From NCBI GenBank assembly GCA_018817125.1, contig JAHIUN010000013.1, positions 1 to 62,694 on the forward strand: a stretch of 62,694 nucleotides of DNA. Direction: 5' to 3'. A model generated the notes under the pieces. The model was not told where the DNA came from and made no database searches. It worked only from the letters and a program-made list of their open reading frames with translations. The stretch's first letter is position 1, and every line of letters begins with the position of its first letter. This DNA comes from Patescibacteria group bacterium (GTDB lineage Bacteria > Patescibacteriota > Gracilibacteria > UM-FILTER-43-11). Shown here piece after piece: positions 7,297-59,375 of the stretch. Both the position numbers and the translations under genes were made by a program.

Positions 7297-7412
7297 AGGT
7301 TCGTATTGTGGCTCGTATTGTAGGTCGTATCGTGGGTCGTATGGTGGCTCGTATTGTGGTCTACTATTCGATCCACAATTCGGCCAACCATTCGAGCCAC
7401 TATCCGGGGCTA
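7297..7412. repeat. Quasi-palindromic array, family GGCTCGTATTGTGG, between ctpA and dnaJ
   Basis: About six direct units of 14-15 nt (TCGTATTGTGGC, TCGTATTGTAGG, TCGTATCGTGGG, TCGTATGGTGGC and so on) fill the left half. The right half carries inverted units (GATCCACAATTCGG, CCAACCATTCGAGCC, CTATCCGGGGC). The whole fills the gap between two co-directional genes. The same unit, in the form CCACAATTCGCTCCACCATTCGAG, occurs 49 kb away in the leader of a prepilin gene. Confidence 0.85.
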
Positions 7413-12416: not shown

Positions 12417-15192
12417 TAACAGGCCTTTCGTCGTTCTCGACTTAGAAACCAGCGGCATTGATCCCAAAAAAGACGACATTATTGAAGTGGCGATGGTTCG
12501 TTATGAAAATGGAAAAGAGGTGAAGCGATACGACGATCTGATCAAAATCAATTATAAACTCCCTAAAATCATCACGGTCATTACGGGGATCACGGATCAG
12601 GACTTACAGGAAAACGGTCGTGATAAAGGAATTGTTTTTGAGGAAATTGAGGAAATGTTAGATGGGGCTTATATGATTGCTCATAATATTAAATTTGATT
12701 TTGGTTTCTTGGAGGCAAAGGGTCTTAATTTAAATATCCTTGGAAAAATAGATACCATTCCTTTTGCTCAGATCCTTTATTCGCAGTCAGCCAGCTATAG
12801 TCTAGAGTCCCTGTCGGATGATCTGAATATTAAACATATTAATAAGCATCGGGCGATGGGTGATGTGGAGGCGACGCTGGAATTGTTTAAAAAGATGTGT
12901 GAAAAGATTGAACAGCTTCCTGATAAATTGATCAAAGAAATCGAGAAATATGTAAGCAGGTCTATGTGGGATGGGGGAGCGGTTTTTGAGGGAGTGAAAG
13001 GAGTTCTTATTAAAAGTCCAATTGAAGGCCCAATTGAAGGCCCAATTGATCGTTCAGTACAAGGTGTGCAAAAACCGTTGGAGGTCGACGAAATCCTCAA
13101 GGAGGGCGGTATTTTTCAGCAGTATTCCGATGACTACGAACCCAGGCCTCAGCAGGTTCAGATGGCGGAGAATGTGATGAATGCGTTTAATCAGGGCTAT
13201 CATTTAATCTGTGAGGCGCCCACGGGTGTCGGAAAATCGCTGGCCTACCTAACAGCGGCAGCAAACGTGGCGATTAAAAATAAATCCAAGGTCGTTATTT
13301 CTACCAACACCATCAACCTGCAGGAACAGCTGTTTGAGAAAGACATCCCCCTGCTTCAGGCTCTCTACCGGCATCGCACCAATCACCCTGGTTTTCGTGC
13401 CGCCCTTTTAAAAGGGCGAAGTCATTATTTATGCCTCCGCCGACTGGCTAAATTTAAAGAACGGCCGCGTTTTTCTGATGAGGAAATTATTTTACTTGTT
13501 AAAATCCTGGTGTGGCAGGCCACCACGCTTTCCGATGACTGTGGCGAGATCCATTTAACGCGCGGAGAAAATCTGACCTGGGATTTTGAATTGTGTGCGG
13601 ATAAAAAATACTGCACTCCGCAAAAGTGCAGAGTGTATGGGGAATGTTATTTACATCGGGCACGCAAAAAAGCGGAGCATGCCGATATTATTGTGGTTAA
13701 TCACGCATTGCTGTGTGCTGATCTGGAAAGCGAAGGAGCGCTTTTGCCGGATTATCAATATCTGGTGATCGATGAGGCACATAATTTTGAATCCGCTTCC
13801 ACCGATGCTTTTGGCATGACCTTAAAACAGGAAAACTTTATTCTCCCGCTCAAACTTATTCAGGCAAACCTGGAAACCATACAAAAACGATATGAAGGAA
13901 CGCTGTTTGGCGGGCAGATGGCGATGGACCGAATCGGCGAAGCACTTTCTAATATCGATAATCTGAAAGACGCGATCGATAATCTCTTTACCGTGATTGC
14001 CCTTTTTGTGAATCGAAATGTTCAGGATTCCGGTTATATCGAAAATCTGCTGGTCGATCAGGGAATTTTAGGGTCAGAAGAATGGTTAAATTTAAGCACC
14101 TCTTCCGATGAGACTCTTCGCCGGGTTACGACGTGGCTTCGCACGGTCAAAGATTTCGTGGAGGCGTGGATGCTGAGTGGTGACGAAGCATCTGAGCAGA
14201 GTGAATTTGTGATGGAGATCCTTCAGGAATCAGAGATCCTTCAGGAGCAGATCTCAGCGCTGAAACATTTTTTTGCAGATGAAAATGCCTCAGATTACAT
14301 TCGCTGGATGTCATCTGATCTTCAGGGGGTTGTTACGGTTGATCTGGCTCCGTATTTACCGGGGGATTGTTTAAAAGACCGCCTGTATAACAAGAAGAAA
14401 TCTATTATTCTTACGTCCGCTACGTTGGGGGTGAAATTATCGGATAAAAACTTTGATGCCCCCGAACAGCATCCGTTCACTTATTTACGCACGCTTCTTA
14501 GTCTGGATGACCGGTTTGAAGAACTCATCATTGATTCGCCATTTAACTTTGAAACCCAAACGTACGTCCTCATTCCTAACGACGCCATTCCCATTACATC
14601 CCCCAAAAGCAATCAGCAGATGGCACCGTTTTTTGAAAAGCTTATCCGTAATGCGGGGGGCAATATGATGTCTCTTTTTACGTCGTATAAGATGATTGAA
14701 AACTTGTATTTGGATTTAATGCAGCCGCTCCAGAATGAAGGAGTCCGGTTATTGGCTCAGCGGATCAGCGGAGGCCGAAACAAGATCATGAAAGCGTATA
14801 TGAACGACCCTGCTCACTCAATTTTATTTGGCACGGCCAGCTTTTGGGAAGGGGTGGATATTAAAGGTGATGCCCTTTCTACGCTCGTTATCCACAAGCT
14901 CCCGTTCGATGTTCCCAGTGACCCCATCTGCAAAGCCCGGAGCCAGATGTTTAATAATGGTTTTTTTGAATATCTCGTTCCGCGGGCCATCCTTAAATTC
15001 CGCCAGGGCTTTGGCCGGCTTATCCGTTCCCAAAAAGATTACGGGGTGATGGTAGTGCTCGATAACCGCGTGCTCACCAAAGAATACGGCAAACTGTTTT
15101 TAGAGGCGTTGCCGGAGGGCATTACACTGGAGGAATCTAAATTAATGGAGATACCGGATAAAGTGAAAAATTGGTTAGATTTGAATCGCTGA
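12412..15192 (+). CDS. dinG: 3'-5' exonuclease fused to DinG-family Fe-S helicase
   Basis: 926 aa, start at TTG 12412 directly before VVLDLETSG. Residues about 1-170 are a DEDDh exonuclease (VLDLETSG, AHNIKFDFGFLE, HRAMGDVEATLELF) like the PolC epsilon domain. Residues about 225-926 form a superfamily 2 helicase: Walker A APTGVGKS near 268, DEAH near 453, and four Cys (near 376, 394, 401 and 406-411) that fit an Fe-S cluster as in DinG/XPD. This exonuclease-helicase layout is known in Firmicutes. The linker contains a repeat-derived SPIEGPIEGPID stretch (13010-13060). Expected role: resolving DNA structures in repair. Confidence 0.9.
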   Translation: MFNRPFVVLDLETSGIDPKKDDIIEVAMVRYENGKEVKRYDDLIKINYKLPKIITVITGITDQDLQENGRDKGIVFEEIEEMLDGAYMIAHNIKFDFGFLEAKGLNLNILGKIDTIPFAQILYSQSASYSLESLSDDLNIKHINKHRAMGDVEATLELFKKMCEKIEQLPDKLIKEIEKYVSRSMWDGGAVFEGVKGVLIKSPIEGPIEGPIDRSVQGVQKPLEVDEILKEGGIFQQYSDDYEPRPQQVQMAENVMNAFNQGYHLICEAPTGVGKSLAYLTAAANVAIKNKSKVVISTNTINLQEQLFEKDIPLLQALYRHRTNHPGFRAALLKGRSHYLCLRRLAKFKERPRFSDEEIILLVKILVWQATTLSDDCGEIHLTRGENLTWDFELCADKKYCTPQKCRVYGECYLHRARKKAEHADIIVVNHALLCADLESEGALLPDYQYLVIDEAHNFESASTDAFGMTLKQENFILPLKLIQANLETIQKRYEGTLFGGQMAMDRIGEALSNIDNLKDAIDNLFTVIALFVNRNVQDSGYIENLLVDQGILGSEEWLNLSTSSDETLRRVTTWLRTVKDFVEAWMLSGDEASEQSEFVMEILQESEILQEQISALKHFFADENASDYIRWMSSDLQGVVTVDLAPYLPGDCLKDRLYNKKKSIILTSATLGVKLSDKNFDAPEQHPFTYLRTLLSLDDRFEELIIDSPFNFETQTYVLIPNDAIPITSPKSNQQMAPFFEKLIRNAGGNMMSLFTSYKMIENLYLDLMQPLQNEGVRLLAQRISGGRNKIMKAYMNDPAHSILFGTASFWEGVDIKGDALSTLVIHKLPFDVPSDPICKARSQMFNNGFFEYLVPRAILKFRQGFGRLIRSQKDYGVMVVLDNRVLTKEYGKLFLEALPEGITLEESKLMEIPDKVKNWLDLNR

Positions 15193-25648: not shown

Positions 25649-25652
25649 TTTA

Positions 25653-25706
25653 TTTCTGATTTGTGATTTCTGATTTCTGATTCACAAATCTCAATTCACA
25701 AATCTA
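25653..25706. repeat. Quasi-palindromic spacer array, family TGATTTCTGATTTCTGA
   Basis: Left units TTCTGATTTGTGATTTCTGA mirror right units TTCACAAATCTCAATTCACA. The same TCAGAAATCAGAAATC unit is found in the leader region of the prepilin gene at 56339. Confidence 0.75.
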
Positions 25707-25716
25707 AATTTTTTAA

Positions 25717-28909: not shown

Positions 28910-28950
28910 AACGTAATAACGTAATAACGCGATAACGTAATAACAATGTA
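28910..28950. repeat. Repeat array, unit AACGTAATAACGCGATAACG, left of yggT
   Basis: Four units of ACGTAATA/GCGATA type. The stretch TAACGCGATAACGTAATA recurs exactly in inverted orientation on the other side of yggT (29254-29296). Confidence 0.8.
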
Positions 28951-30762: not shown

Positions 30763-30850
30763 GAACTTTTTCACTGGATCACTTTTCACTGGATCACTTT
30801 TCACTGGATCACTTTTCACTGGATTAGTGTTCCGGTGATAAAAAGTTTTT
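30763..30850. repeat. Tandem 15-bp repeat with inverted end
   Basis: Four almost perfect TTTTCACTGGATCAC units in tandem, then GATTAGTGTTCCGGTGATAA, the inverted and altered form. AACTTTTTCACTGGATCAC pairs with GTGTTCCGGTGATAAAAAGTT. It is the most regular tandem in the window and lies between murB and nnrD. Confidence 0.9.
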
Positions 30851-33219: not shown

Positions 33220-33721
33220 AATAGATTTCAAATTGGGGGTCAGATTGGGGTTCAAATCGAGGTTTATAAGTTATTTTTTCTACGCAAATAATTTATAAAA
33301 TTTAATATTTTAATAGATAGATTCTTATATTGATTAAGATAAAATTCAAAAGCTTTTTTATCAATACATTTTTTATTATACAGGATATTTAAGTGATGTT
33401 GTGTTTCATCACTGGATCCCAATGCGATTGTAAGAAAGCGAATAAAATCTTTTGGATAGAATCTACGTCCAAATGCCTCCGCTATATTAGCAGAAATAGA
33501 CGAAGAAGAACGTTTTATCTGTCCGACTTGTTCTATGCGCCAAGTTAATTTGTCGATAACTGGGAATAATTCTTTTTCTAGCTGTGTGGCAATTGCATAT
33601 ACTCTTAATTCATTGAAGTGCATAAAATACTTTAAATACAAAATAAGGTGAAATTGTATATATGTTTTACTAAAAAATCAATTTGATCCACAATTTGACC
33701 TTCGATTTGGTCCTCAATTTG
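33220..33721. mobile_element. Candidate element 1: four-helix-bundle gene between inverted unit arrays (family A)
   Basis: Left arm 33220-33262 holds TTTCAAATTGGGGG, TCAGATTGGGG, TTCAAATCGAGG. Right arm 33677-33721, read as reverse complement, holds CAAATTGAGGAC, CAAATCGAAGG, TCAAATTGTGGA, TCAAATTGA. About 25 of 36 positions agree. ORF-less arrays of the same unit lie at 50305-50385 and 56941-57039, and single arms occur in coding sequence at 13010 and 52805. There is no transposase; mobility is inferred. Confidence 0.5.
33264..33623 (-). CDS. Four-helix-bundle protein, S23/IVP family (copy 1)
   Basis: 119 aa from ATG 33623 (an ATG at 33641 is also possible). Family marks: FNELRVYAIA at the start, QIKRSSSSISANIAEAFGRR in the middle, DFIRFLTIALGSSDETQHHL and YKNLSIKILNF late. 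These proteins form small four-helix bundles, often pentamers, related to ORFs inside 23S rRNA intervening sequences and to the Avd accessory protein of diversity-generating retroelements. Function unclear. Upstream it shares ATTTTGTATTTAAAG with copy 2. Enclosed by inverted repeat arms. Confidence 0.88.
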   Translation of the reverse strand: MHFNELRVYAIATQLEKELFPVIDKLTWRIEQVGQIKRSSSSISANIAEAFGRRFYPKDFIRFLTIALGSSDETQHHLNILYNKKCIDKKAFEFYLNQYKNLSIKILNFINYLRRKNNL

Positions 33722-36871: not shown

Positions 36872-36993
36872 ACTCTCTTTAAGATTATTAAGACTTTTGT
36901 GACTTTTAGGACTTTTACGATTATTACGATGATGTATTTTATTCAATCGTAATAGTCCTAAAAGTCTTCATAATCCTAAAAATCCTAAAGAGT
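36872..36993. repeat. Large ORF-less quasi-palindrome, family C (GACTTTTAGGATTATTAAG)
   Basis: Left arm CTCTTTAAGATTATTAAGAC, TTTTGTGACTTTTAGGAC, TTTTACGATTATTACGAT. Right arm is the inverse: ATCGTAATAGTCCTAAAAGT, CTTCATAATCCTAAAAATCC, TAAAGAG. About 50 bases per arm around a 15-base centre. Its unit matches the arms around the four-helix-bundle domain at 58268-58722. The remaining gap to the VanW gene holds an ATGCGCAT palindrome (36841-36848) and the VanW promoter. Confidence 0.88.
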
Positions 36994-40326: not shown

Positions 40327-40917
40327 ATGTCAAAAGTTTATCAGCCTCAGGACAAGTTTTTTAAAAAGGCCAAAGAGCAGGGCTATCGGGCTCGCAGTGC
40401 CTTTAAGCTTCAGGCTATTCAGGATCGCTTTCATTTAATCAGTCCGGGTGACCACGTCCTTGATTTGGGGGCGGCGCCGGGGAGTTTTTTACAATTGGTT
40501 GAAAAGCTTGTCGGCTCTAAGGGGCTGGCTGTCGGAATCGACTTAAAACCTATCGAAGATTTAAAAAAACCGAACATCAAAACCATCGTTGGCGATATTC
40601 TGGATGATGCTATTTATCAGCAGCTCGGCATTGATCAATTTGATGTGATTACTTCCGATCTTGCCCCTTCAACATCTGGTGTTAAGAGCGTGGATGCAGG
40701 GCGGTCTTTTCAGCTTAATGAACAAGTCCTGAATGTGGCCGAGAAGTATCTGAAACTCGGTGGGCACGTGGTGATGAAGGCCTTTCCGGGTGCTGAGCAC
40801 CAACAGCTGCTTAAAAAAGCAAAAGGTATGTTTAAAAACATCAAAACTTTTAAGCCTGAGGCGGTTCGTAAGTCCAGCAGAGAAGAATATGTAATCGGAA
40901 TAGAAAGAATTGCTTAA
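40327..40917 (+). CDS. rlmE: 23S rRNA (uridine2552-2'-O)-methyltransferase
   Basis: 196 aa. RlmE/FtsJ fold: YRARSAFKLQAIQDRF, SAM motif VLDLGAAPGSFLQ near residue 46, and the K-D-K-E catalytic set (Lys in SAFKL, Asp in SDLAPSTSG, Lys in VVMKAFPG, Glu in SREEYV). It methylates U2552 in the 50S A loop. The last codons and the stop (AGAATTGCTTAA) are also the first unit of the left arm of candidate element 2, so the C-terminus has been overwritten by the repeat. Confidence 0.94.
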   Translation: MSKVYQPQDKFFKKAKEQGYRARSAFKLQAIQDRFHLISPGDHVLDLGAAPGSFLQLVEKLVGSKGLAVGIDLKPIEDLKKPNIKTIVGDILDDAIYQQLGIDQFDVITSDLAPSTSGVKSVDAGRSFQLNEQVLNVAEKYLKLGGHVVMKAFPGAEHQQLLKKAKGMFKNIKTFKPEAVRKSSREEYVIGIERIA

Positions 40918-41435
40918 GAATTGCTTAAGAATCGCTTAAAGAATAGCTCAAGGATTGCTTAAGAATAGCTTGAGAATTTTGTTAATATACGTTAGCATGG
41001 CGTACTATTTTGTATTTAAGTGAATATGAGTCAAACATTTAAAAATCTGAGAGTTTATCAGATTGCAATTGATCTTAGTGCCGAGATTTATAAATTGGCT
41101 TTGAAATTACCTGCATCTGAAAAATATAGAATTGCGGATCAAATAATCAGAAGCTCCCGTTCTGTGCCTGCCAATATTGCGGAGGGTTATTCTAGGAAAA
41201 AATATAAAGCTGATTTTTTAAGATACCTTACTATTGCTCATGGCTCCTCAGAGGAAACCAAAGTCCATTTGGAGGTATTAAACAATTCTAGACTAATATC
41301 ATTTGAGATTTATTCGGATTTATTAAGAAGGTATAAAAATTTGTCAGTTCGGATAATCAATTATAAGAAAAAGATTCAAGAAGATATGAACTGATCAATT
41401 TTGAGCAATTCTTAGACAATTCTTAAGCAATTCTT
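40910..41435. mobile_element. Candidate element 2: four-helix-bundle gene between inverted unit arrays (family B)
   Basis: Left arm 40910-40975 has units AGAATTGCTTA, AGAATTGCTTA, AGAATCGCTTAA, AGAATAGCTCA and so on. Right arm 41399-41435 as reverse complement reads AGAATTGCTTA, AGAATTGTCTA, AGAATTGCTCA. The outer 35 bases agree at 31 positions. The left arm starts inside the rlmE stop and the right arm ends at the pyrG stop. The ORF-less array at 22001-22070 has the same unit. Confidence 0.55.
41026..41394 (+). CDS. Four-helix-bundle protein, S23/IVP family (copy 2)
   Basis: 122 aa from ATG 41026 (GTG 41020 also in frame). FKNLRVYQIAIDLSAEIY, QIIRSSRSVPANIAEGYSRK, DFLRYLTIAHGSSEETKVHL and YKNLSVRIINY align closely with copy 1. 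The upstream ATTTTGTATTTAAG matches copy 1 (ATTTTGTATTTAAAG), and TTGTTA with TACTAT at 18-base spacing (40979-41008) may be the promoter. The gene sits between inverted arms. Proposed as the trans-acting partner of the family B hairpins; no activity is shown for the family. Confidence 0.9.
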   Translation: MSQTFKNLRVYQIAIDLSAEIYKLALKLPASEKYRIADQIIRSSRSVPANIAEGYSRKKYKADFLRYLTIAHGSSEETKVHLEVLNNSRLISFEIYSDLLRRYKNLSVRIINYKKKIQEDMN

Positions 41436-41436
41436 C

Positions 41437-43032
41437 CTACAAAGCTGTTTTAATAAAATCCCGGAAGAGGGGATGAGGTCTATTTGGTCGTGATTTGAAC
41501 TCAGGATGGAATTGTGAGCCAACCATAAAAGGATGGCTTTTTACTTCAACGATTTCCATTAGCTCGCGATCTGGTGATACCCCTGAAAAGATCAGGCCTT
41601 TTTTCTCGAGCTGTGCTTTAAATTTATTATTAAACTCATACCGATGACGATGCCGTTCATCAATACGCTCTATCCCATAAGCTTTATAAGCCTTTGTTCC
41701 CTTTTTCAGTTTACAAGGCCAGGAGCCAAGTCTTAGTGTTCCGCCTTTAGCCCGTTTTTCGTTTTGGCCCGGCAGGAAGTGGACGACTTTGTTTTTCGCT
41801 TTTGGAGAAAACTCTTCGGAGGTCGCGTTTTTTATTTCCGCGACGTTTTGAGCGAATTCAATGGTCATGATCTGTGCCCCTAAACACAATCCAAGATAGG
41901 GTACTTTTTCTTCACGGCAGTATTGCGCAACGAGGATTTTTCCGGTGGTTCCCCGATGGCCAAAACCACCAGGTACCACAACGCCATCTACTTTATGCAG
42001 TTTTTTCCATTCCAGCCGGTCTTTGGCTTCGATTTTTTCCGCATCAATCCACACGATTTTGGCTTTACGCTTGTGAAAAAAGCTTGCGGATTTAATAGCT
42101 TCGATCACCGAAATGTATGCGTCATCTAAGTCGTTGTATTTACCGGCCAGTCCGATCAGGATTTCATCATGTTTTGTCATGATGTTTTTTACCATCTTTT
42201 CCCACTCAGCCATCTTTGGTTTCTTGTATTTAAGATTCAGTTTTTTGCAAATCGTTTTAACAATATCGTATTTTTCGTAGATGAGCGGGACTTCATAAAT
42301 CGATTGAACGGTTGGAGAGGGAATAACAGCCTCTTTTTCCACATCACAGAATTTTGAAATTTTCAATAAGTGGCTATTTTCAATCTTTTCGTCGGCTCGT
42401 GGCATGATGATATCCGGATGAATACCCATGCTTTGTAATGTCCGGACTGATAACTGAGTCGGTTTCGTTTTCAGTTCATTAGAAGCCTTAAGAAATGGCA
42501 GCAGCGTTAAATGGATAAAAAGTGTGTTTTCCCGCCCTTCTTCGTTCCGCATTTGGCGAAGCGCTTCGATGAACGGCTGACCTTCAATATCTCCCACAGT
42601 CCCTCCGATTTCGCAAAGTATAATGTCAGCTTTGGATTTGCGTGCCGCCTCCCGAATCCTTCTTTTTATTTCATCGGTGATATGAGGAATGATCTGAATG
42701 GTTTTCCCTAAATAGTCCCCCTTTCTCTCACAATCTAAAACCGATTGATAAACTTGTCCTGTGGAAAAACTACTAAATTTACTAAGAGAAATATCAATGA
42801 ACCGTTCGTAATGTCCAAGGTCCAAATCCGTTTCTGCTCCGTCGTTCGTTACAAATACTTCCCCATGCTGGAATGGGCTCATCGTGCCGGGATCTACATT
42901 TAAATAAGGATCGAGTTTTTGCGTAAACACAGAATAGCCGGAGGCTTTCATCAGATTTCCGATAGAGGCTGAGGCGATTCCTTTGCCGAGCGAAGAGCAG
43001 ACCCCCCCAGTGACGAATATGTATTTGGGCAT
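41437..43032 (-). CDS. pyrG: CTP synthase
   Basis: 531 aa, full length. N-terminal synthetase domain: FVTGGVCSSLGKGIASASIG, then KLDPYLNVDPGTMSPFQHGE. C-terminal class I glutaminase with the nucleophile Cys in YLGLCLGAQ and the His/Glu pair in FHPEFKSRP. It makes CTP from UTP, ATP and glutamine. It converges on the four-helix-bundle gene. trpS lies 25 bases upstream in the same direction. Confidence 0.98.
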   Translation of the reverse strand: MPKYIFVTGGVCSSLGKGIASASIGNLMKASGYSVFTQKLDPYLNVDPGTMSPFQHGEVFVTNDGAETDLDLGHYERFIDISLSKFSSFSTGQVYQSVLDCERKGDYLGKTIQIIPHITDEIKRRIREAARKSKADIILCEIGGTVGDIEGQPFIEALRQMRNEEGRENTLFIHLTLLPFLKASNELKTKPTQLSVRTLQSMGIHPDIIMPRADEKIENSHLLKISKFCDVEKEAVIPSPTVQSIYEVPLIYEKYDIVKTICKKLNLKYKKPKMAEWEKMVKNIMTKHDEILIGLAGKYNDLDDAYISVIEAIKSASFFHKRKAKIVWIDAEKIEAKDRLEWKKLHKVDGVVVPGGFGHRGTTGKILVAQYCREEKVPYLGLCLGAQIMTIEFAQNVAEIKNATSEEFSPKAKNKVVHFLPGQNEKRAKGGTLRLGSWPCKLKKGTKAYKAYGIERIDERHRHRYEFNNKFKAQLEKKGLIFSGVSPDRELMEIVEVKSHPFMVGSQFHPEFKSRPNRPHPLFRDFIKTAL

Positions 43033-44231: not shown

Positions 44232-44585
44232 ATGGCATCAGAACTTTCAGTAATCATTGCCGATGGTCCTAACCCTGCTGTTAAAGTGGTCACGCTGGTC
44301 GGGGAAATGGATGAATCAAATATAGAATCCGTAAGAGGTCAGTTGGATACTCTTTTGGCTGATTTGAGTGTTGTCCATTTGGTTTTTGATTTAGCCCAAC
44401 TTGAATTTATCAATAGTAAAGGAATCGGTTATCTGGTCTCCGTGCACACCCATCTTTCAAAAGATAAGCGCGTGCTAATTTTGGCGGATGCCCAGGAGGC
44501 GGTGATGGATGTGATCAGTTTGGTAGGGTTAACGACCATTATCAAATACTTTCAGACATTGGATGAGGCTCTCCAGAATTTGTAA
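44232..44585 (+). CDS. STAS domain protein (anti-sigma factor antagonist-like)
   Basis: 117 aa from ATG 44232 (MASELSVII); an ATG at 44214 is also possible, adding six residues. STAS fold with the conserved loop LEFINSKGIGYL, where Ser precedes Lys-Gly, equivalent to the phosphorylated Ser of SpoIIAA/RsbV. Such proteins release partner-bound sigma factors or regulate other partners. No anti-sigma kinase or sigma factor gene is next to it. It precedes the antiporter gene by 72 bases, occupied by a repeat array. Confidence 0.85.
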   Translation: MASELSVIIADGPNPAVKVVTLVGEMDESNIESVRGQLDTLLADLSVVHLVFDLAQLEFINSKGIGYLVSVHTHLSKDKRVLILADAQEAVMDVISLVGLTTIIKYFQTLDEALQNL

Positions 44586-44655
44586 TTTTTAATTTGAAAT
44601 TTTTAATTACTAGATCTTTCAATAAAAATTAAAAACTAAAAATTAAAAAATAAGT
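44584..44655. repeat. Quasi-palindromic array, family AATTTTTAATTTGAAATTTTT
   Basis: Left AATTTTTAATTTGAAATTTT mirrors right AATAAAAATTAAAAACTAAA plus AATTAAAAAAT. It fills the gap between the STAS and antiporter genes. Confidence 0.7.
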
Positions 44656-50304: not shown

Positions 50305-50385
50305 CGATGGAGGACCCAATCGAAGGTCCAATTGACAGAATGCCAGATTAACAATCAATTGGGTCCTCAACGGGCCCTCAATCGG
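50305..50385. repeat. ORF-less hairpin, family A (GGxCCAATTGAxG), before uvrC
   Basis: Left arm GATGGAGGACCCAATCGAAG, GTCCAATTGAC; right arm AATCAATTGGGTCCTCAACG, GGCCCTCAATCGG. Same unit family as the arms of candidate element 1. The -10 box of uvrC begins two bases after the right arm. Confidence 0.85.
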
Positions 50386-50386
50386 T

Positions 50387-50392
50387 TATAAT
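50387..50392 (+). promoter_or_regulatory. -10 box of uvrC, leaderless configuration
   Basis: Perfect TATAAT, 6 bases (GAGCTT) before the ATG, so the transcript would begin at the start codon. No good -35 box is seen, since the repeat array occupies that position. Confidence 0.6.
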
Positions 50393-50398
50393 GAGCTT

Positions 50399-52711
50399 AT
50401 GAAGAATTTTAAAAAAATCCTCACCAAGATTCCGAACAAGCCAGGGGTTTATCAATTTTTGAATGATGAAAAGGAGCCCCTTTATATAGGTAAGGCCAAA
50501 AATCTGCGCAAACGCGTACAAACTTATTTCCGACAATCCGCCAAACACAGCCCCCGTACTGCCAAGATGCTGGAGTATGTAGAGGACATTAAATGGATTG
50601 AGACGAATAGCGAGGTGGAGGCTCTGATTTTGGAGGATAATCTGGTTAAAGAACTTCAGCCTAAATACAACGTTTTACTTCGGGATGATAAGAATTTTCA
50701 GTACATCAAAGTGACGGTTGAGCAGGATTATCCGGAAATATACACTGTTCGCCGGATCACAAAAGACCACGCCAAAGGTCGGACAGGCGGTGCTAAATAT
50801 TTCGGTCCTAAAACGTCCGGTTCGGATGTGAAGCGATTGGTCGATACCGTGAAACGTGTTTTCAGGCTGTGCAGTGTACGGAATATCAATCTTGATCCAA
50901 AGGGCAAGCCTTTAAAAGGCGCAAAAGTGGCGGTCAAAATCGGCACCACATCAGCCAAACGTCCGTGTCTGGATTACCATATCAAGCGCTGTGTCGGTCC
51001 GTGCGCGGGCATGGTCACGCCCGAAGAATATCGTGTGCTCATCAACCAGGCGATCGAGTTTTTAGGAGGGGATTATAAGCCGGCGATCGAATCACTGAAA
51101 AAACAGATGCGGGAATTCGCCACCGCTAAAAAGTTTGAACGTGCCGCTAAACTCCGCGATCAGATCATGGCTATTGAACGGAGCGCGGAAAAACAATTGA
51201 TCACCAGTACCGATGTGATGGATCGTGATGTTATCGCGTCTGTGCAGGATCTCGGCCGGAACTTTTTTAACCTTTTTCAGATTCGCAACGGTCGGCTGAT
51301 CGGTCAGGAGAATTTTATTGTGGAAGGGGGTGAGGGACCCGCGGAAGTCATGGAAACCTTTTTACGGGATTATTACGCGATGGCCGCGGATATTCCGAAA
51401 GAGATCCTGATCTCTATTGAGGTCGGTGAACATAAACTGCTTCAGGATTACATCCGCCAATTTACCCGTTCGACTTCGCTCAGGGCAGGCAAAGCTGTTC
51501 AGCTCATTCATCCGCAGGTTGGCAAAAAAGACGACCTCATCCTGCTTTCTGAAAAGAACGCCCGTAGTTTCGCGGAACAGAACCGGGCCCGTTGGATGAT
51601 GGATAAAAGAGAAGAAAAGGCTTTAGAAGAACTGAAAGAGGTCCTTAAGCTTGAGGCTGAGCCTAAGCGGATCGAATGCTACGATATTTCCCATCTTTCC
51701 GGCACGGAAACGGTCGGTTCGATGGTCGTGTTTAAAAAAGGCGAACCGGCAACGGCGGATTACCGCCAGTTCCGTTTAAAAACCACTCAGGGCAGCTTAG
51801 ATGATTACAAATCCATGGTCGAAGTTCTGCGCCGCCGCCTGAATTATCTGCCAGCGGTTTTACCGGAAAGTTATAAATTAGAGAAGGCTAAAAAGAAAGA
51901 TGAAGCCTTTCTCCGAAAAGTCTGGGATCGCATGGAACGATTTGATGTTAAGCAGTTTTATGTGATTCGGAAGAAGGAAAAAATTGTTGCAATAGGCCGT
52001 ATTGATCCACTCGATGAAAAAGTTCACCGCATTGCCGGTTTGTGGGTCGATAAAAAGGAGCAGGGGAAAAAGCTTGGTCATTTTATCATTAAAAAACTCA
52101 TCGAAACCAGTAAACAAAAACGTTTATATTTATTTTGTCATCAGGAACTGGAAACGTATTACCTTAAGCTCGGTTTTGACACTTTGCATCAGCCGCCAAA
52201 AGAACTGAGTGATCACGCTAAAAAGTATTTAAATGAGGTGAAAAAACCGCTTTATATGGCCTATCAGAAAAAGAAGAAGGACCTGTCATTCGAAACCCGC
52301 CCCAATCTTATTGTCATCGATGGCGGGAAGGGGCAATTGCACGCGGCGCATGATGTTTTATTCGAAAAGGGATTGAGTGTTCCTATCATCGCACTGGCCA
52401 AACGAATCGAAGAAGTCTTTATTCCCGGAAAATCCGAACCGATTAATCTCAAATCTGATAGTGAAGGCTCTTACCTTCTTCAGCGCATACGCGATGAGGC
52501 GCATCGGTTTGCCATTGAATACAATCGGTCTTCGCGTGATAAAAAAATGACACAGTCCGCGCTCGACAAAATCCCCGGAGTCGGCCCAAAACTCCGAAAA
52601 CGTTTACTCACTTATTTTGGCTCTGTTCAGAAAATCCGTGAAGCGCCTCAGGTGACTTTGGAACAGATCGCGGGTGAAAATATTGCCAAGAGAATCAAAG
52701 AGAACCTATAA
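50399..52711 (+). CDS. uvrC: Excinuclease UvrC with an inserted GNAT acetyltransferase domain
   Basis: 770 aa; UvrC is usually about 600. GIY-YIG nuclease (KPGVYQFLNDEKEPLYIGKA, near residue 14), UVR motif near 220-250, RNase-H-like endonuclease starting IECYDISHLSGTETVGSMVVF near 420, and terminal HhH (IPGVGPKLRKRLL). Between about residues 484 and 625, in the middle of the endonuclease domain, a GNAT domain is inserted: VAIGRIDPLDEKVHRIAGLWV, KKEQGKKLGHFIIKKLIE (acetyl-CoA loop), ETYYLKLGFDTL. A second small insertion near residue 356 (RSTSLRAGKA) derives from a dispersed repeat. It incises damaged DNA with UvrAB. Confidence 0.95.
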   Translation: MKNFKKILTKIPNKPGVYQFLNDEKEPLYIGKAKNLRKRVQTYFRQSAKHSPRTAKMLEYVEDIKWIETNSEVEALILEDNLVKELQPKYNVLLRDDKNFQYIKVTVEQDYPEIYTVRRITKDHAKGRTGGAKYFGPKTSGSDVKRLVDTVKRVFRLCSVRNINLDPKGKPLKGAKVAVKIGTTSAKRPCLDYHIKRCVGPCAGMVTPEEYRVLINQAIEFLGGDYKPAIESLKKQMREFATAKKFERAAKLRDQIMAIERSAEKQLITSTDVMDRDVIASVQDLGRNFFNLFQIRNGRLIGQENFIVEGGEGPAEVMETFLRDYYAMAADIPKEILISIEVGEHKLLQDYIRQFTRSTSLRAGKAVQLIHPQVGKKDDLILLSEKNARSFAEQNRARWMMDKREEKALEELKEVLKLEAEPKRIECYDISHLSGTETVGSMVVFKKGEPATADYRQFRLKTTQGSLDDYKSMVEVLRRRLNYLPAVLPESYKLEKAKKKDEAFLRKVWDRMERFDVKQFYVIRKKEKIVAIGRIDPLDEKVHRIAGLWVDKKEQGKKLGHFIIKKLIETSKQKRLYLFCHQELETYYLKLGFDTLHQPPKELSDHAKKYLNEVKKPLYMAYQKKKKDLSFETRPNLIVIDGGKGQLHAAHDVLFEKGLSVPIIALAKRIEEVFIPGKSEPINLKSDSEGSYLLQRIRDEAHRFAIEYNRSSRDKKMTQSALDKIPGVGPKLRKRLLTYFGSVQKIREAPQVTLEQIAGENIAKRIKENL
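51467..51490. repeat. CCTTCGACTTCGCTCAGG-like repeat inside uvrC
   Basis: CGTTCGACTTCGCTCAGGGC followed by AGGC is read in frame as STSLRAGKA. Similar copies lie at 20296, 20350 and 62402 in non-coding DNA. Confidence 0.7.
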
Positions 52712-52742: not shown

Positions 52743-53696
52743 ATGAGAAAAGTATTAATCATTTTTACAATTATACTGTCCGTTTTTTATTTAAATGGAT
52801 GTGGTATGTCAGTTGAGGATCAGATTGGGGATCAAATTGAGGGCCAAATTGAAGATTCAGCTGAAGAGGTTGTGGAATTGGAACTGTCGCAACTTATAAA
52901 TAATCCGGTTTATAACAAAGATCTAAAGCTAAAAGGAACGGTCGGTTTGCTGGGCGAATTGTTTTGTCCTTGTTTTCGGCTGGGCGGAGGTGAGGATTTT
53001 GTTGAGGTCTGGTATGACCTGATGGCGGTGGATAGCGGTGAGCCGTGGCCAAAAGTTGATATTGAAGGGTTCGAAAACGGCGATGAAGTCATTGTTACCG
53101 GCCAATTGCGTGAGAACACAGGCTCTCTTCCTAGTAAAACCTTTTGGTTGAAATCAATTGAACCATCCTCTGCTGAAGCTGCGGAGGTTTCAGCGGAGGA
53201 AGAGAAAGAGCCTGTGATCATGACTGATGAGGAGTCAGCCATGATGATGGAGAAAATTGAAGAAGACTCTACCGCTAAAGAAAATGATGACAACATGGTT
53301 CAGAAGATGATGGTCATGATCTATGATTACTATGGCGATTTGGTGGATGTGGTTAAGGGGAAGACGATTTTGGGCCTTTCTTTTGCCGGCATCGAAAGTT
53401 CAGGAAGGGCGGAAGCGGTTTTTGAAAACGGAACTTACTACTTGCGGGCGATTCTTTACTACTTACCCATTCCAAAAGACGACTCCTTTTACGAGGGCTG
53501 GATTGTGCGAAAAAGCCCATTCAGTGTCATCAGTACCGGCAAAGCTCAGTTAATCGATGATCGTTACGTGAATATTTATCGCTCCGCACAGGATTTAACC
53601 GATCATGATTTTTATGTGCTTACCTTGGAGCCAAACGACGGTGATCCTGCACCGGCTGCTCATGTACTGGAAGGGCTGATGGAAAAAGTTGATTAG
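52743..53696 (+). CDS. Lipoprotein with repeat-derived linker and OB-like domain
   Basis: 317 aa from ATG 52743; an upstream in-frame start lies inside uvrC and is rejected. Signal peptide with lipobox FYLNGC. The first mature residues EDQIGDQIEGQIEDS are encoded by family A repeat units. Residues about 55-120 (LKLKGTVGLLGELFC, DEVIVTGQLREN) resemble an OB-fold of the nucleic-acid/anticodon type often found in lipoproteins. Acidic Met-rich linker near 160-190, then a globular C-terminus. Function unknown. Confidence 0.7.
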   Translation: MRKVLIIFTIILSVFYLNGCGMSVEDQIGDQIEGQIEDSAEEVVELELSQLINNPVYNKDLKLKGTVGLLGELFCPCFRLGGGEDFVEVWYDLMAVDSGEPWPKVDIEGFENGDEVIVTGQLRENTGSLPSKTFWLKSIEPSSAEAAEVSAEEEKEPVIMTDEESAMMMEKIEEDSTAKENDDNMVQKMMVMIYDYYGDLVDVVKGKTILGLSFAGIESSGRAEAVFENGTYYLRAILYYLPIPKDDSFYEGWIVRKSPFSVISTGKAQLIDDRYVNIYRSAQDLTDHDFYVLTLEPNDGDPAPAAHVLEGLMEKVD

Positions 53697-56940: not shown

Positions 56941-57039
56941 TGGAGACCTCGCTTACGGCGGGAGACCTAATGGGAGGCCTAGTGGGTGTATAACCCCAAT
57001 CAGGTCCCCAATCAGGTTCCCAATTAGGCCACCCATTGG
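56941..57039. repeat. Quasi-palindromic array in the pilB leader (family A type)
   Basis: Left GGAGACCTAATGGGAGGCCT, AGTGGG; right CCCCAATCAGGTCCCCAATC, AGGTTCCCAATTAGGCCACC, CATTGG. The arms pair over about 40 bases, right up to the pilB start. Confidence 0.85.
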
Positions 57040-57044
57040 AAAAA

Positions 57045-58268: not shown

Positions 58269-58722
58269 TTATGACTCTTAGGATTATTAAGACTTTGAAG
58301 AATATTAAGATAAAAAATGTCTACATATAAAGGAACATTCAGAAAATTAATAGCTTGGCAGGCCGCCAAGGTTTTAACTAAAGAAATTTATCGCATTACT
58401 AATAAATTTCCTTCAGACGAGAAATATGGTTTAAGCAGTCAGATGAAGCGTGCATCTATTTCAATAATGTCTAATATTGCTGAGGGCAATCAAAGAACTG
58501 GCAGAAAGGATACTTTAAATTTCTTTAATATTGCTTTTAGTTCTCTTACTGAAGTTGATTGTCAGTCTGAAATAGCTTTTGAGCTAGATTATATATCAAA
58601 AAAGGATTATGACATTTTAACTGAATTAATTAATAAGGCTGGCTATCTTATTTTTCGTTTAGTTGAATCAAAAAGGGATCCTGATAGTCCTAAAAGTCAT
58701 AAAAATCAAAAAAATCCTAACG
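58268..58722. mobile_element. Candidate element 3: four-helix-bundle domain between inverted arms (family C)
   Basis: Left arm 58268-58312 has TATGACTCTTAGGATTATTA then AGACTTTGAAGAATATTAAG. Right arm 58676-58722 as reverse complement has TATGACTTTTAGGACTATCA. Over 26 aligned bases about 20 agree. The right arm is translated as the linker between the four-helix bundle and a prepilin. The ORF-less array 36872-36993 has the same unit. Confidence 0.5.
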
Positions 58723-59375
58723 AAAGAGGCTTTACCCTTGTTGAACTGCTTATCGCAGTAGCGATTATTGCTGTTTTGTCGGTTTCTTCCGTTGTTGGCT
58801 TCGCGTATTTAGGAGATATGCTGAAAGCGCGTGAGGTCACTGGTTTTATTACTGATACTATTCAACAGCAGGAGCTTAAAATTTTACGGGGAGAGTTTGA
58901 AGAAACTATTATTCACCTTTTGCCCAATTATTTGGTGATTGAAGAGATTGATGCAGAGTCTTCAATTGATTTAAATTTCAATAAGACTGCTTGTGATGAT
59001 GATTACCAGATTGATTTTGATATGGGTGGTAATTTAACTCAGCGCGATGAAGAAGGGGCGATTATTCGTATTGAAAGCGTTATTCCGCTTTCTAAATGTG
59101 TTTATTTTAAAGAAGCGGATGATATTGAATGGAGTTATCAGCTCACGATCGGAAATCAGTTTTCTAATACCATTCGCTTTGTCCATTTCAATCTTCAGCG
59201 GGAAAATCTTAATAATCCGATTGCGATTACTGAAGGTGATGGTTCGAGCATCCGCATTAAAGCTCCTTATGCAAAAAAAACTCTTTATAGCCCTGCTGGC
59301 AGTTTAGCTGGCTGGCTAGACTTAACGGTAACTGATCAGGAAGGGGGATCTACTGACACTTTAACGATTCGTTAA
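58317..59375 (+). CDS. Four-helix-bundle domain fused to a GspH/pilin-type prepilin
   Basis: 352 aa. Residues about 8-120 are a four-helix bundle of the S23/IVP family (FRKLIAWQAAKVLTKEIYRI, QMKRASISIMSNIAEGNQR, NFFNIAFSSLTEVDCQSEIA). Residues about 122-137 (SKRDPDSPKSHKNQKNPNE) are encoded by repeat units. Then G|FTLVELLIAVAIIAVLSVSS begins a prepilin of about 215 residues. Prepilin peptidase would cut after the Gly and release the bundle, so the fusion may be harmless. It likely arose when an element landed in the leader of an existing prepilin gene. Overlaps pilC by one base. Confidence 0.8.
   Translation: MSTYKGTFRKLIAWQAAKVLTKEIYRITNKFPSDEKYGLSSQMKRASISIMSNIAEGNQRTGRKDTLNFFNIAFSSLTEVDCQSEIAFELDYISKKDYDILTELINKAGYLIFRLVESKRDPDSPKSHKNQKNPNERGFTLVELLIAVAIIAVLSVSSVVGFAYLGDMLKAREVTGFITDTIQQQELKILRGEFEETIIHLLPNYLVIEEIDAESSIDLNFNKTACDDDYQIDFDMGGNLTQRDEEGAIIRIESVIPLSKCVYFKEADDIEWSYQLTIGNQFSNTIRFVHFNLQRENLNNPIAITEGDGSSIRIKAPYAKKTLYSPAGSLAGWLDLTVTDQEGGSTDTLTIR

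Follow-up and report, generated by a model that had tools for sequence, protein, structure and literature searches.

IVP genes between inverted arrays of phased repeat units: a proposed bacteria-wide mobile element with gene-less satellites

The stretch analyzed here, referred to as the window, is the 62,694-nt contig JAHIUN010000013.1 of a Patescibacteria group bacterium (assembly GCA_018817125.1; contig C2 of genome G000, which comprises 1.03 Mb in 17 contigs and is 89% complete). Between its cyclophilin gene and gltX lies an element, IVP element 1, in which a single gene of the 23S_rRNA_IVP / four-helix-bundle protein family (PF05635, TIGR02436; IVP below) is flanked by inverted arms of degenerate tandem units. 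Comparative analysis revealed this architecture in at least 15 phyla, a link between the unit period and the clade of the IVP protein, a unit consensus and polarity for the period classes, gene-less hairpins made of the same units, and presence, absence and exchange of elements at gene junctions. With a probability of roughly 0.6, IVP is the only gene of a mobile element spread across bacteria; its product would recognize phased arrays as the element's own ends, and the gene-less hairpins would be satellites.

IVP element 1 at the cyclophilin-gltX junction

33677–33721, minus strand: IVP element 1, 5' arm in the sense of the gene; 12-nt units CAAATTGAGGAC/CAAATCGAAGGT/CAAATTGTGGAT/CAAATTGA; begins right behind the cyclophilin stop codon
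33264–33623, minus strand: IVP element 1, gene; 119 aa; PF05635 E = 7.6e-21; 11/12-nt clade of the IVP tree
33220–33262, minus strand: IVP element 1, 3' arm; inverted 12-nt units; abuts the gltX start codon

The 119-aa protein was read from the best start (ATG at 33623) and begins MHFNELRVYAIATQ. It matched PF05635 with 74.8 bits against a curated cut-off of 33.8, and TIGR02436 was matched by all 16 IVP members tested. IVP was the sole gene-sized open reading frame (ORF) between the arms, with no transposase encoded, and its location beside cyclophilin and gltX is not within a 23S rRNA gene.

An earlier interpretation made from the letters of this DNA alone (the sequence-only reading) had described inverted arms around the gene, and these could be confirmed: comparing the left arm with the reverse complement of the right one gave 24 of 34 identical positions at one ungapped offset, and a second offset gave 27 of 42. 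Its view that conservation follows the unit register rather than exact bases also held. Near-equal matches were obtained at offsets −15, −3, 9 and 21, that is, 12 nt apart, so the arms match by unit register and not by a unique pairing. Of 4000 positions drawn at random from this genome with equal geometry, 1 reached the gapped arm score of 49.

The genome was further scanned, with all contigs joined and three short ones read as N, for the CAAATTGxGG unit that the same interpretation had expected above background. The bare 10-mer was at background level (35 copies against 29–37 in simulations), and exact-motif frequency was therefore discarded as an uninformative test. The phased pairs were decisive: 12-nt-class units were spaced exactly 12 nt apart in 21 cases and exactly 24 nt apart in 14, and simulations produced 0. 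Copies were located mainly in gaps, 16 of the 21 pairs with 12-nt spacing being intergenic in a genome that is about 90% coding.

Phased arms accompany IVP genes across phyla

A total of 16 IVP genes was found in G000, nearly all flanked by inverted arms of degenerate tandem units, with the unit differing by locus. Arm scoring and period calls followed author-set rules with fixed thresholds (inverted arms were called at a score of at least 34), and genes were defined by a simple ORF rule. Across G000 and its relatives, inverted arms were present in 86% of 94 non-redundant IVP loci, compared to 4.7% of mismatched flanks and 3.6% of random positions; most of the genomes are draft metagenome bins, and loci sharing a genome are not independent. 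Scanning genome contigs for the conserved IVP motif produced 80 named loci from at least 15 phyla. Inverted arms were observed in 72% of the 78 testable ones against 1.9% of controls, and the period was 7 nt in 48 of 58 labelled arms. An out-of-sample test was made on a distant bAvd-like clade in other phyla. Arms were present at 17 of 20 loci, with periods of 7 (12 loci), 8 (2) and 6 (2) but never 9, 11 or 12. The median number of units per arm was 4.4–4.6 for periods of 7–9 nt and approximately 3 for 11–12 nt. A search for phage relatives of IVP returned none.

A lag scan of G000 revealed phased segments at periods 7 (81 segments), 11 (16), 12 (14), 9 (10) and 8 (9), and also at 14. None occurred at period 10, and a Markov-1 simulation produced none at all. 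These merged into 154 arrays, and most of those with 7-, 8-, 9-, 11- or 12-nt units lay in gaps despite the high coding share of the genome. Two of the other IVP elements are in the window.

40901–40969, plus strand: IVP element 2, 5' arm; 11-nt units TTAAGAATTGC
41020–41394, plus strand: IVP element 2, gene; PF05635 E = 3.8e-31
41400–41439, plus strand: IVP element 2, 3' arm; inverted 11-nt units, 88% complementary to the 5' arm
58269–58310, plus strand: IVP element 3, 5' arm; 9-nt units TTAGGATTA/TTAAGACTT
58317–58660, plus strand: IVP element 3, IVP domain; PF05635 E = 3.2e-34; a type IV pilin N-methylation domain follows downstream in the same frame, both within one 352-aa ORF
58678–58733, plus strand: IVP element 3, 3' arm; inverted 9-nt units, translated as part of the pilin fusion

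The IVP-pilin frame of element 3 (58317–59372) has IVP frames of the same length in relatives G004 (L180; 353 aa) and G012 (L155; 347 aa). The fusion may thus be conserved, with the arm serving as a prepilin leader.

Period, consensus and polarity follow the IVP protein

A tree of 90 IVP proteins was compared with the period of the adjacent arms. The 19-row clade that holds the element 1 gene had 11- or 12-nt arms wherever these were labelled, a 10-row clade had 9-nt arms wherever labelled, one small clade had 6-nt arms, and the remainder was mostly of period 7. The period class changed 6 times on the tree, compared to no fewer than 19 times, and 24 on average, over 300 shuffles. The tree was built quickly from few columns and leaves many forks open; single placements are unreliable, yet the gap to the shuffles is large.

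Each class also had its own unit consensus, for example CnAATtGkgGnn for the 12-nt class (A4, T5 and G7 nearly invariant) and TTrnGAywA for the 9-nt class, above column-permuted nulls. Only the period class and this loose consensus were common to loci, the arm sequence itself differing from locus to locus. Polarity was biased as well, the G-rich strand coming first (5' arm, towards the gene) at ratios of 69:12 in the 7-nt, 9:2 in the 9-nt and 9:0 in the 12-nt class. This bias was not seen in the distant bAvd-like clade (9:7).

Gene-less hairpins and translated arrays

Under strict calling, 39 gene-less phased hairpins were found in G000, with a median loop of 22 nt. The one at C11:26503 resembles an unphased stem and was excluded from the polarity test. 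Among the remaining 38, polarity was the same as that of the best-matching IVP arms of this genome in 32, opposite in 5 and tied in 1. Of 26 gene-less 11/12-nt arrays, 21.3 had their best match in the IVP arms of G000 itself (18% expected). The 9-nt hairpins at 36879 in the window and at C7:101648 had a nearly identical loop too, as for dispersed copies. The hairpins and the single translated arrays of the window were as follows.

7298–7406, no strand assigned: gene-less hairpin; 12-nt units CGTATTGTGGCT; unit and polarity match the IVP element at G000:C1:47998; fold z −5.5
36875–36992, no strand assigned: gene-less hairpin; 9-nt units TTAAGACTT; unit and polarity of element 3; loop nearly identical to the G000:C7:101648 copy; z −7.4
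50305–50388, no strand assigned: gene-less hairpin; 12-nt units GGAGGACCCAATCGAAGGTCCAATTG; z −2.2
56941–57040, no strand assigned: gene-less hairpin; 12-nt units CCTAATGGGAGG / CCCCAATCAGGT; z −1.4
25652–25709, no strand assigned: gene-less hairpin; 7-nt units ATTTCTG
44577–44653, no strand assigned: gene-less hairpin; 7-nt units AATTTTT
13009–13049, plus strand: single 12-nt-unit array, translated; variable linker (aa 200–213) of a 926-aa ORF
52813–52852, plus strand: single 12-nt-unit array, translated; in a lipoprotein-like ORF, close to the N-terminus; peptide QIGDQIEGQIE

The hairpins at 50305 and 56941, proposed from the letters alone, were thus recovered, folding modestly better than shuffles, and so were the single arms translated in the helicase-like (926-aa) and lipoprotein ORFs. 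The claim that the unit occurs with and without the gene was borne out by the gene-less hairpins with IVP-type units in the genome. The accompanying picture of one spreading unit had to be modified: there are many units, in period classes that track the protein phylogeny, and they are found bacteria-wide.

The array-bearing linker of the helicase-like ORF was hypervariable in all relatives, so this coding copy is no simple insertion into conserved sequence. The matching linker of one relative (L349) has its own 4-aa repeats, GAPVGAPMGVPMGVP, as if arrays had been exchanged in frame. Arrays of the 8-nt ATAACGA type, which form hairpins, were observed at C1:57324, C7:71405, C13:23626 and C7:108449 of G000 and at 28910–28944 of the window; they are either orphan satellites or a family whose master is missing. 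In sampled genomes, array density per 100 kb was 0–4 in four relatives without IVP and 1.7–19 in those with IVP, a small sample in which the direction was as expected.

Presence, absence and exchange at gene junctions

In the comparison of syntenic neighbours suggested by the sequence-only reading, relatives differed at the cyclophilin (PPIase)-gltX site. The gap of the same-genus relative G001 (L104) held an unrelated palindromic element (TTTTGTCATTTCGACTGGAGC...GAGATTTCTCGAC...AAATGACA), that of G007 a gene-less phased hairpin with another unit, and those of G002 and G008 plain terminators.

The clearest case of presence, absence and exchange was found in Aequorivita, at a junction that we take to be paaA-paaB from the encoded PaaB-like protein. 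It was empty in two species (1-nt spacer), carried an IVP element in six (+432 nt, GTATTGA arms), and carried gene-less heptamer hairpins with other units in four. Between nrdB and nrdA, a Nostoc edaphicum plasmid has an IVP element with GGGAGTA arrays, and Calothrix NIES-4105 has 13 nt. At the cas6-cas4 junction of type I-D systems, IVP elements were present in Pseudanabaena galeata (AAAGCTA arrays) and Anabaena sp. 90 (AGGTGAC/AGGGAAC arrays); gene-less AATTACG arrays were found in ABRG5-3, another palindromic element in Dolichospermum, and a short spacer in Nostoc UHCC 0302. One junction thus repeatedly receives different arrays.

Viewed by plasmid (L298, L299, L300, L295, L297), the cas6-cas4 junction held a different repeat element in nearly each cyanobacterial plasmid examined, two of them with IVP. 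Plasmids 1 and 2 of Calothrix brevissima NIES-22 (L291, L292) share identical IVP flanks with GTGTAGG arrays, and the shared block includes a phage-type integrase gene.

Arms as probable arrays of recognition sites

Arms maintained as a stem in the transcript should have more G-U pairs than A-C clashes. On the sense strand of the phased arms, G-U and A-C mismatches were counted at 50:61 (near) and 52:74 (far), with no excess of wobble pairs. The four rRNA-type loci gave 9:0 and differ from the phased arms (Fisher p = 6e-4). Arm-to-arm identity was 0.828 in the best register and 0.796 one unit off, a difference within unit-shuffled nulls. Both arms fitted the common unit consensus independently, and no covariation as an RNA stem was observed. 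This independence is better explained by recognition sites that recur along the arm than by a helix under covariation. Copies of the rRNA type lack phased arms and make up a separate clade, in which the IVP copy on contig C6 is also grouped; the label "rRNA-type" rests on shared arm sequence and a reading of the flank.

Proposed mechanism and alternative explanations

In the proposed explanation, an element of about 0.45–0.5 kb, with the IVP gene between inverted phased arrays, would have inserted into the gap that separates a stop codon from the start codon of the next gene. The IVP protein would bind the phased units as repeated sites (4–5 units per arm at 7–9-nt periods) and would set the period; such binding would explain why period, consensus and polarity track the protein. 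Binding would mark the arrays of IVP elements and of gene-less hairpins alike as the ends to be copied or inserted. The element itself codes for no enzyme, and strand transfer would therefore be performed by one supplied in trans. The 23S rRNA intervening sequences may be a specialized branch in which the arms were turned into part of the rRNA helix. A solved relative of IVP (2gsc) is a homopentamer (PMC4990558), and the 4–5 units per arm might, speculatively, reflect five subunits.

Several points weigh against this explanation. Binding by IVP, movement and the DNA chemistry are steps that we infer, and the period could track the protein tree through co-descent alone, without recognition. About 14% of the IVP loci have no clear arms. 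None of the Nostoc, Pseudanabaena and Aequorivita junctions showed a clean target-site duplication, the arrays blurring the boundaries. The element has no recombinase, no RVT_1 was found in the 89% complete G000, and the Y1 transposase-like genes prove no route. G000 and G012 are rich in gene-less arrays, but three other sampled IVP-bearing genomes have few, near the IVP-free level, and for several gene-less families (8-nt ATAACGA) G000 offers no IVP partner, again as far as it is complete.

The strongest rival is the passive passenger, in which another enzyme, e.g., a Y1/REP-type transposase acting on hairpins, moves the element, IVP is inert or beneficial cargo, and period and protein are merely inherited together. 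Y1_Tnp (Y1 transposase-like) genes are indeed encoded elsewhere in G000, array turnover can retain a period without any protein, and gene-less hairpins are abundant. We nevertheless consider this reading unlikely, as unit consensus and polarity are kept across loci with diverged proteins, the association in at least 15 phyla and in a distant clade is unexpected of an inert passenger, and the Y1 matches are few and weak. A smaller chance is given to arrays made by the host, with slippage or fold-back synthesis generating phased hairpins in gaps and IVP genes preferring their loops as they do in 23S rRNA helices. Gene-less phased hairpins are more numerous than IVP copies, and IVP in rRNA likewise sits at a helix tip; however, pre-existing arms predict a period independent of the IVP clade, and dependence was observed. 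Moreover, IVP-free genomes are array-poor, with 5 arrays in 323 kb, several of which are coding low-complexity sequence.

That the arms act in RNA, pairing in the transcript to form a stem cut by RNase III as in the 23S rRNA intervening sequences, appears slightly less probable again. The common protein family, the inverted arms and the grouping of the contig C6 copy with the rRNA-type would suit it, whereas the mismatch counts given above, so different from those of the rRNA-type loci, and the absence of a preferred pairing register do not. Transcription terminators or stabilizers of mRNA 3' ends at gene junctions are the least credible of these explanations and, in our view, highly improbable, although most hairpins are in gaps, often right behind a stop codon, and the PPIase-gltX site of other relatives holds ordinary terminators. 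The gene-less hairpins occupied 26 codirectional, 6 divergent and 4 convergent gaps compared to 418, 130 and 80 among all gaps. Their context mirrors that of gaps in general, with neither convergent enrichment nor divergent depletion, which argues against a terminator role, and the period classes and the IVP gene would be left unexplained.

Comparison with known systems

Members of the IVP family have already been reported in 23S rRNA intervening sequences (IVSs) and, as Avd, in diversity-generating retroelements (DGRs). The IVSs with an S23/IVP ORF in Leptospira and Coxiella (PMC4990558) are similar in protein family, single ORF, inverted arms, length (about 430–450 nt) and long-suspected mobility. 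Unlike these, element 1 is outside rRNA, has phased unit arrays instead of a paired stem, and is accompanied by gene-less relatives and clade-linked periods.

Cyanobacterial short tandemly repeated repetitive (STRR) sequences are comparable heptamer arrays. Tandem 7-nt units in gaps, as in the heptamer and STRR arrays, are seen in the 7-nt class; element 1 belongs to the 12-nt class. Heptamer repeats (TAACTGA etc.) of Beggiatoaceae, Cyanobacteria and Bacteroidetes are interpreted as translational regulators in the accessible part of MacGregor 2015 (PMC4679880). As described in that part, they are likewise degenerate 7-nt tandem arrays dispersed in gaps and varying between close relatives; they are mainly direct repeats there, and the same portion of the paper connects them neither with a four-helix-bundle gene nor with inverted arms or other periods.

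As with insertion sequences (ISs) and their miniature inverted-repeat transposable elements (MITEs), gene-bearing and gene-less copies share ends and polarity and show presence and absence at junctions. In contrast to that pair, the IVP element has no transposase and no fixed terminal inverted repeats, target-site duplication was not evident at the three junctions compared, whose boundaries the arrays blur, and the ends are set by period. Repetitive extragenic palindromes (REPs) consist of one short palindrome each, with a tetranucleotide foot. The REP/RAYT (Y1 transposase) system shares with the IVP elements the dispersed palindromic gap elements; the latter, however, are phased arrays with a non-enzymatic protein, and their gene is not a Y1 transposase. 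Avd of the DGRs is a homologous small helical protein, and NCBIfam DivGenRetAVD matched 11 of the 16 IVP members, the one shown scoring 45.6 bits where the cut-off is 80. DGRs differ in their reverse transcriptase, for which no RVT_1 match was found in the 89% complete G000.

For each of IVS, IS/MITE, REP/RAYT and DGR, at least one defining feature was lacking. The IVP element resembles an IS/MITE pair in its gene-bearing and gene-less copies without being a member. No link between IVP, S23 or four-helix-bundle genes and tandem repeat arms was found in the open-access papers searched, so that a report elsewhere is possible; the literature also offered no usable structure of Avd with RNA.

Two further candidates were rejected. 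DGR-like adenine-specific mutagenesis of the units does not fit, the substitution rates being alike at A, C, G and T consensus positions. Telomerase-like synthesis, considered as some units resemble TTTAGGG, does not fit either, as the G-rich strands face inwards and no reverse transcriptase was found.

Other features of the window

An Rfam scan of the window gave nothing beyond one tRNA. A near-perfect 15-nt tandem repeat, TTTTCACTGGATCAC, is located at 30768–30842, in contrast to the degenerate phased arrays. The 770-aa UvrC-like ORF at 50399–52711 contains a GNAT acetyltransferase domain (aa 507–593) within the UvrC RNase H endonuclease domain, which is itself matched in two stretches. The contig ends, 1–141 and 62554–62694, form a perfect 141-bp inverted repeat with the palindrome GCCTGCCTGCCGGCAGGCAGGC. 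Further contigs also end in GCCTGCCTG, and the contig-end repeat is therefore probably an assembly break at a dispersed palindrome.

Implications

A bolder reading, which we put forward tentatively, is that these are a bacteria-wide class of mobile elements whose ends are set by rhythm and not by a fixed sequence. A small non-enzymatic ring protein would recognize or template the unit spacing, with one period per clade, and would mobilize its own gene and the hairpins in trans; the heptamer repeats of Cyanobacteria and Bacteroidetes would then belong to one system with the IVP genes and the intervening sequences of 23S rRNA. IVP/S23 proteins are called hypothetical, with no known function, and heptamer arrays have been catalogued without an agent. 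Through the link described here, the protein acquires a candidate ligand, a candidate agent can be named for the repeats, and a candidate origin for the rRNA intervening sequences; the link also predicts that the repeat period beside any IVP gene should be readable from its protein sequence.
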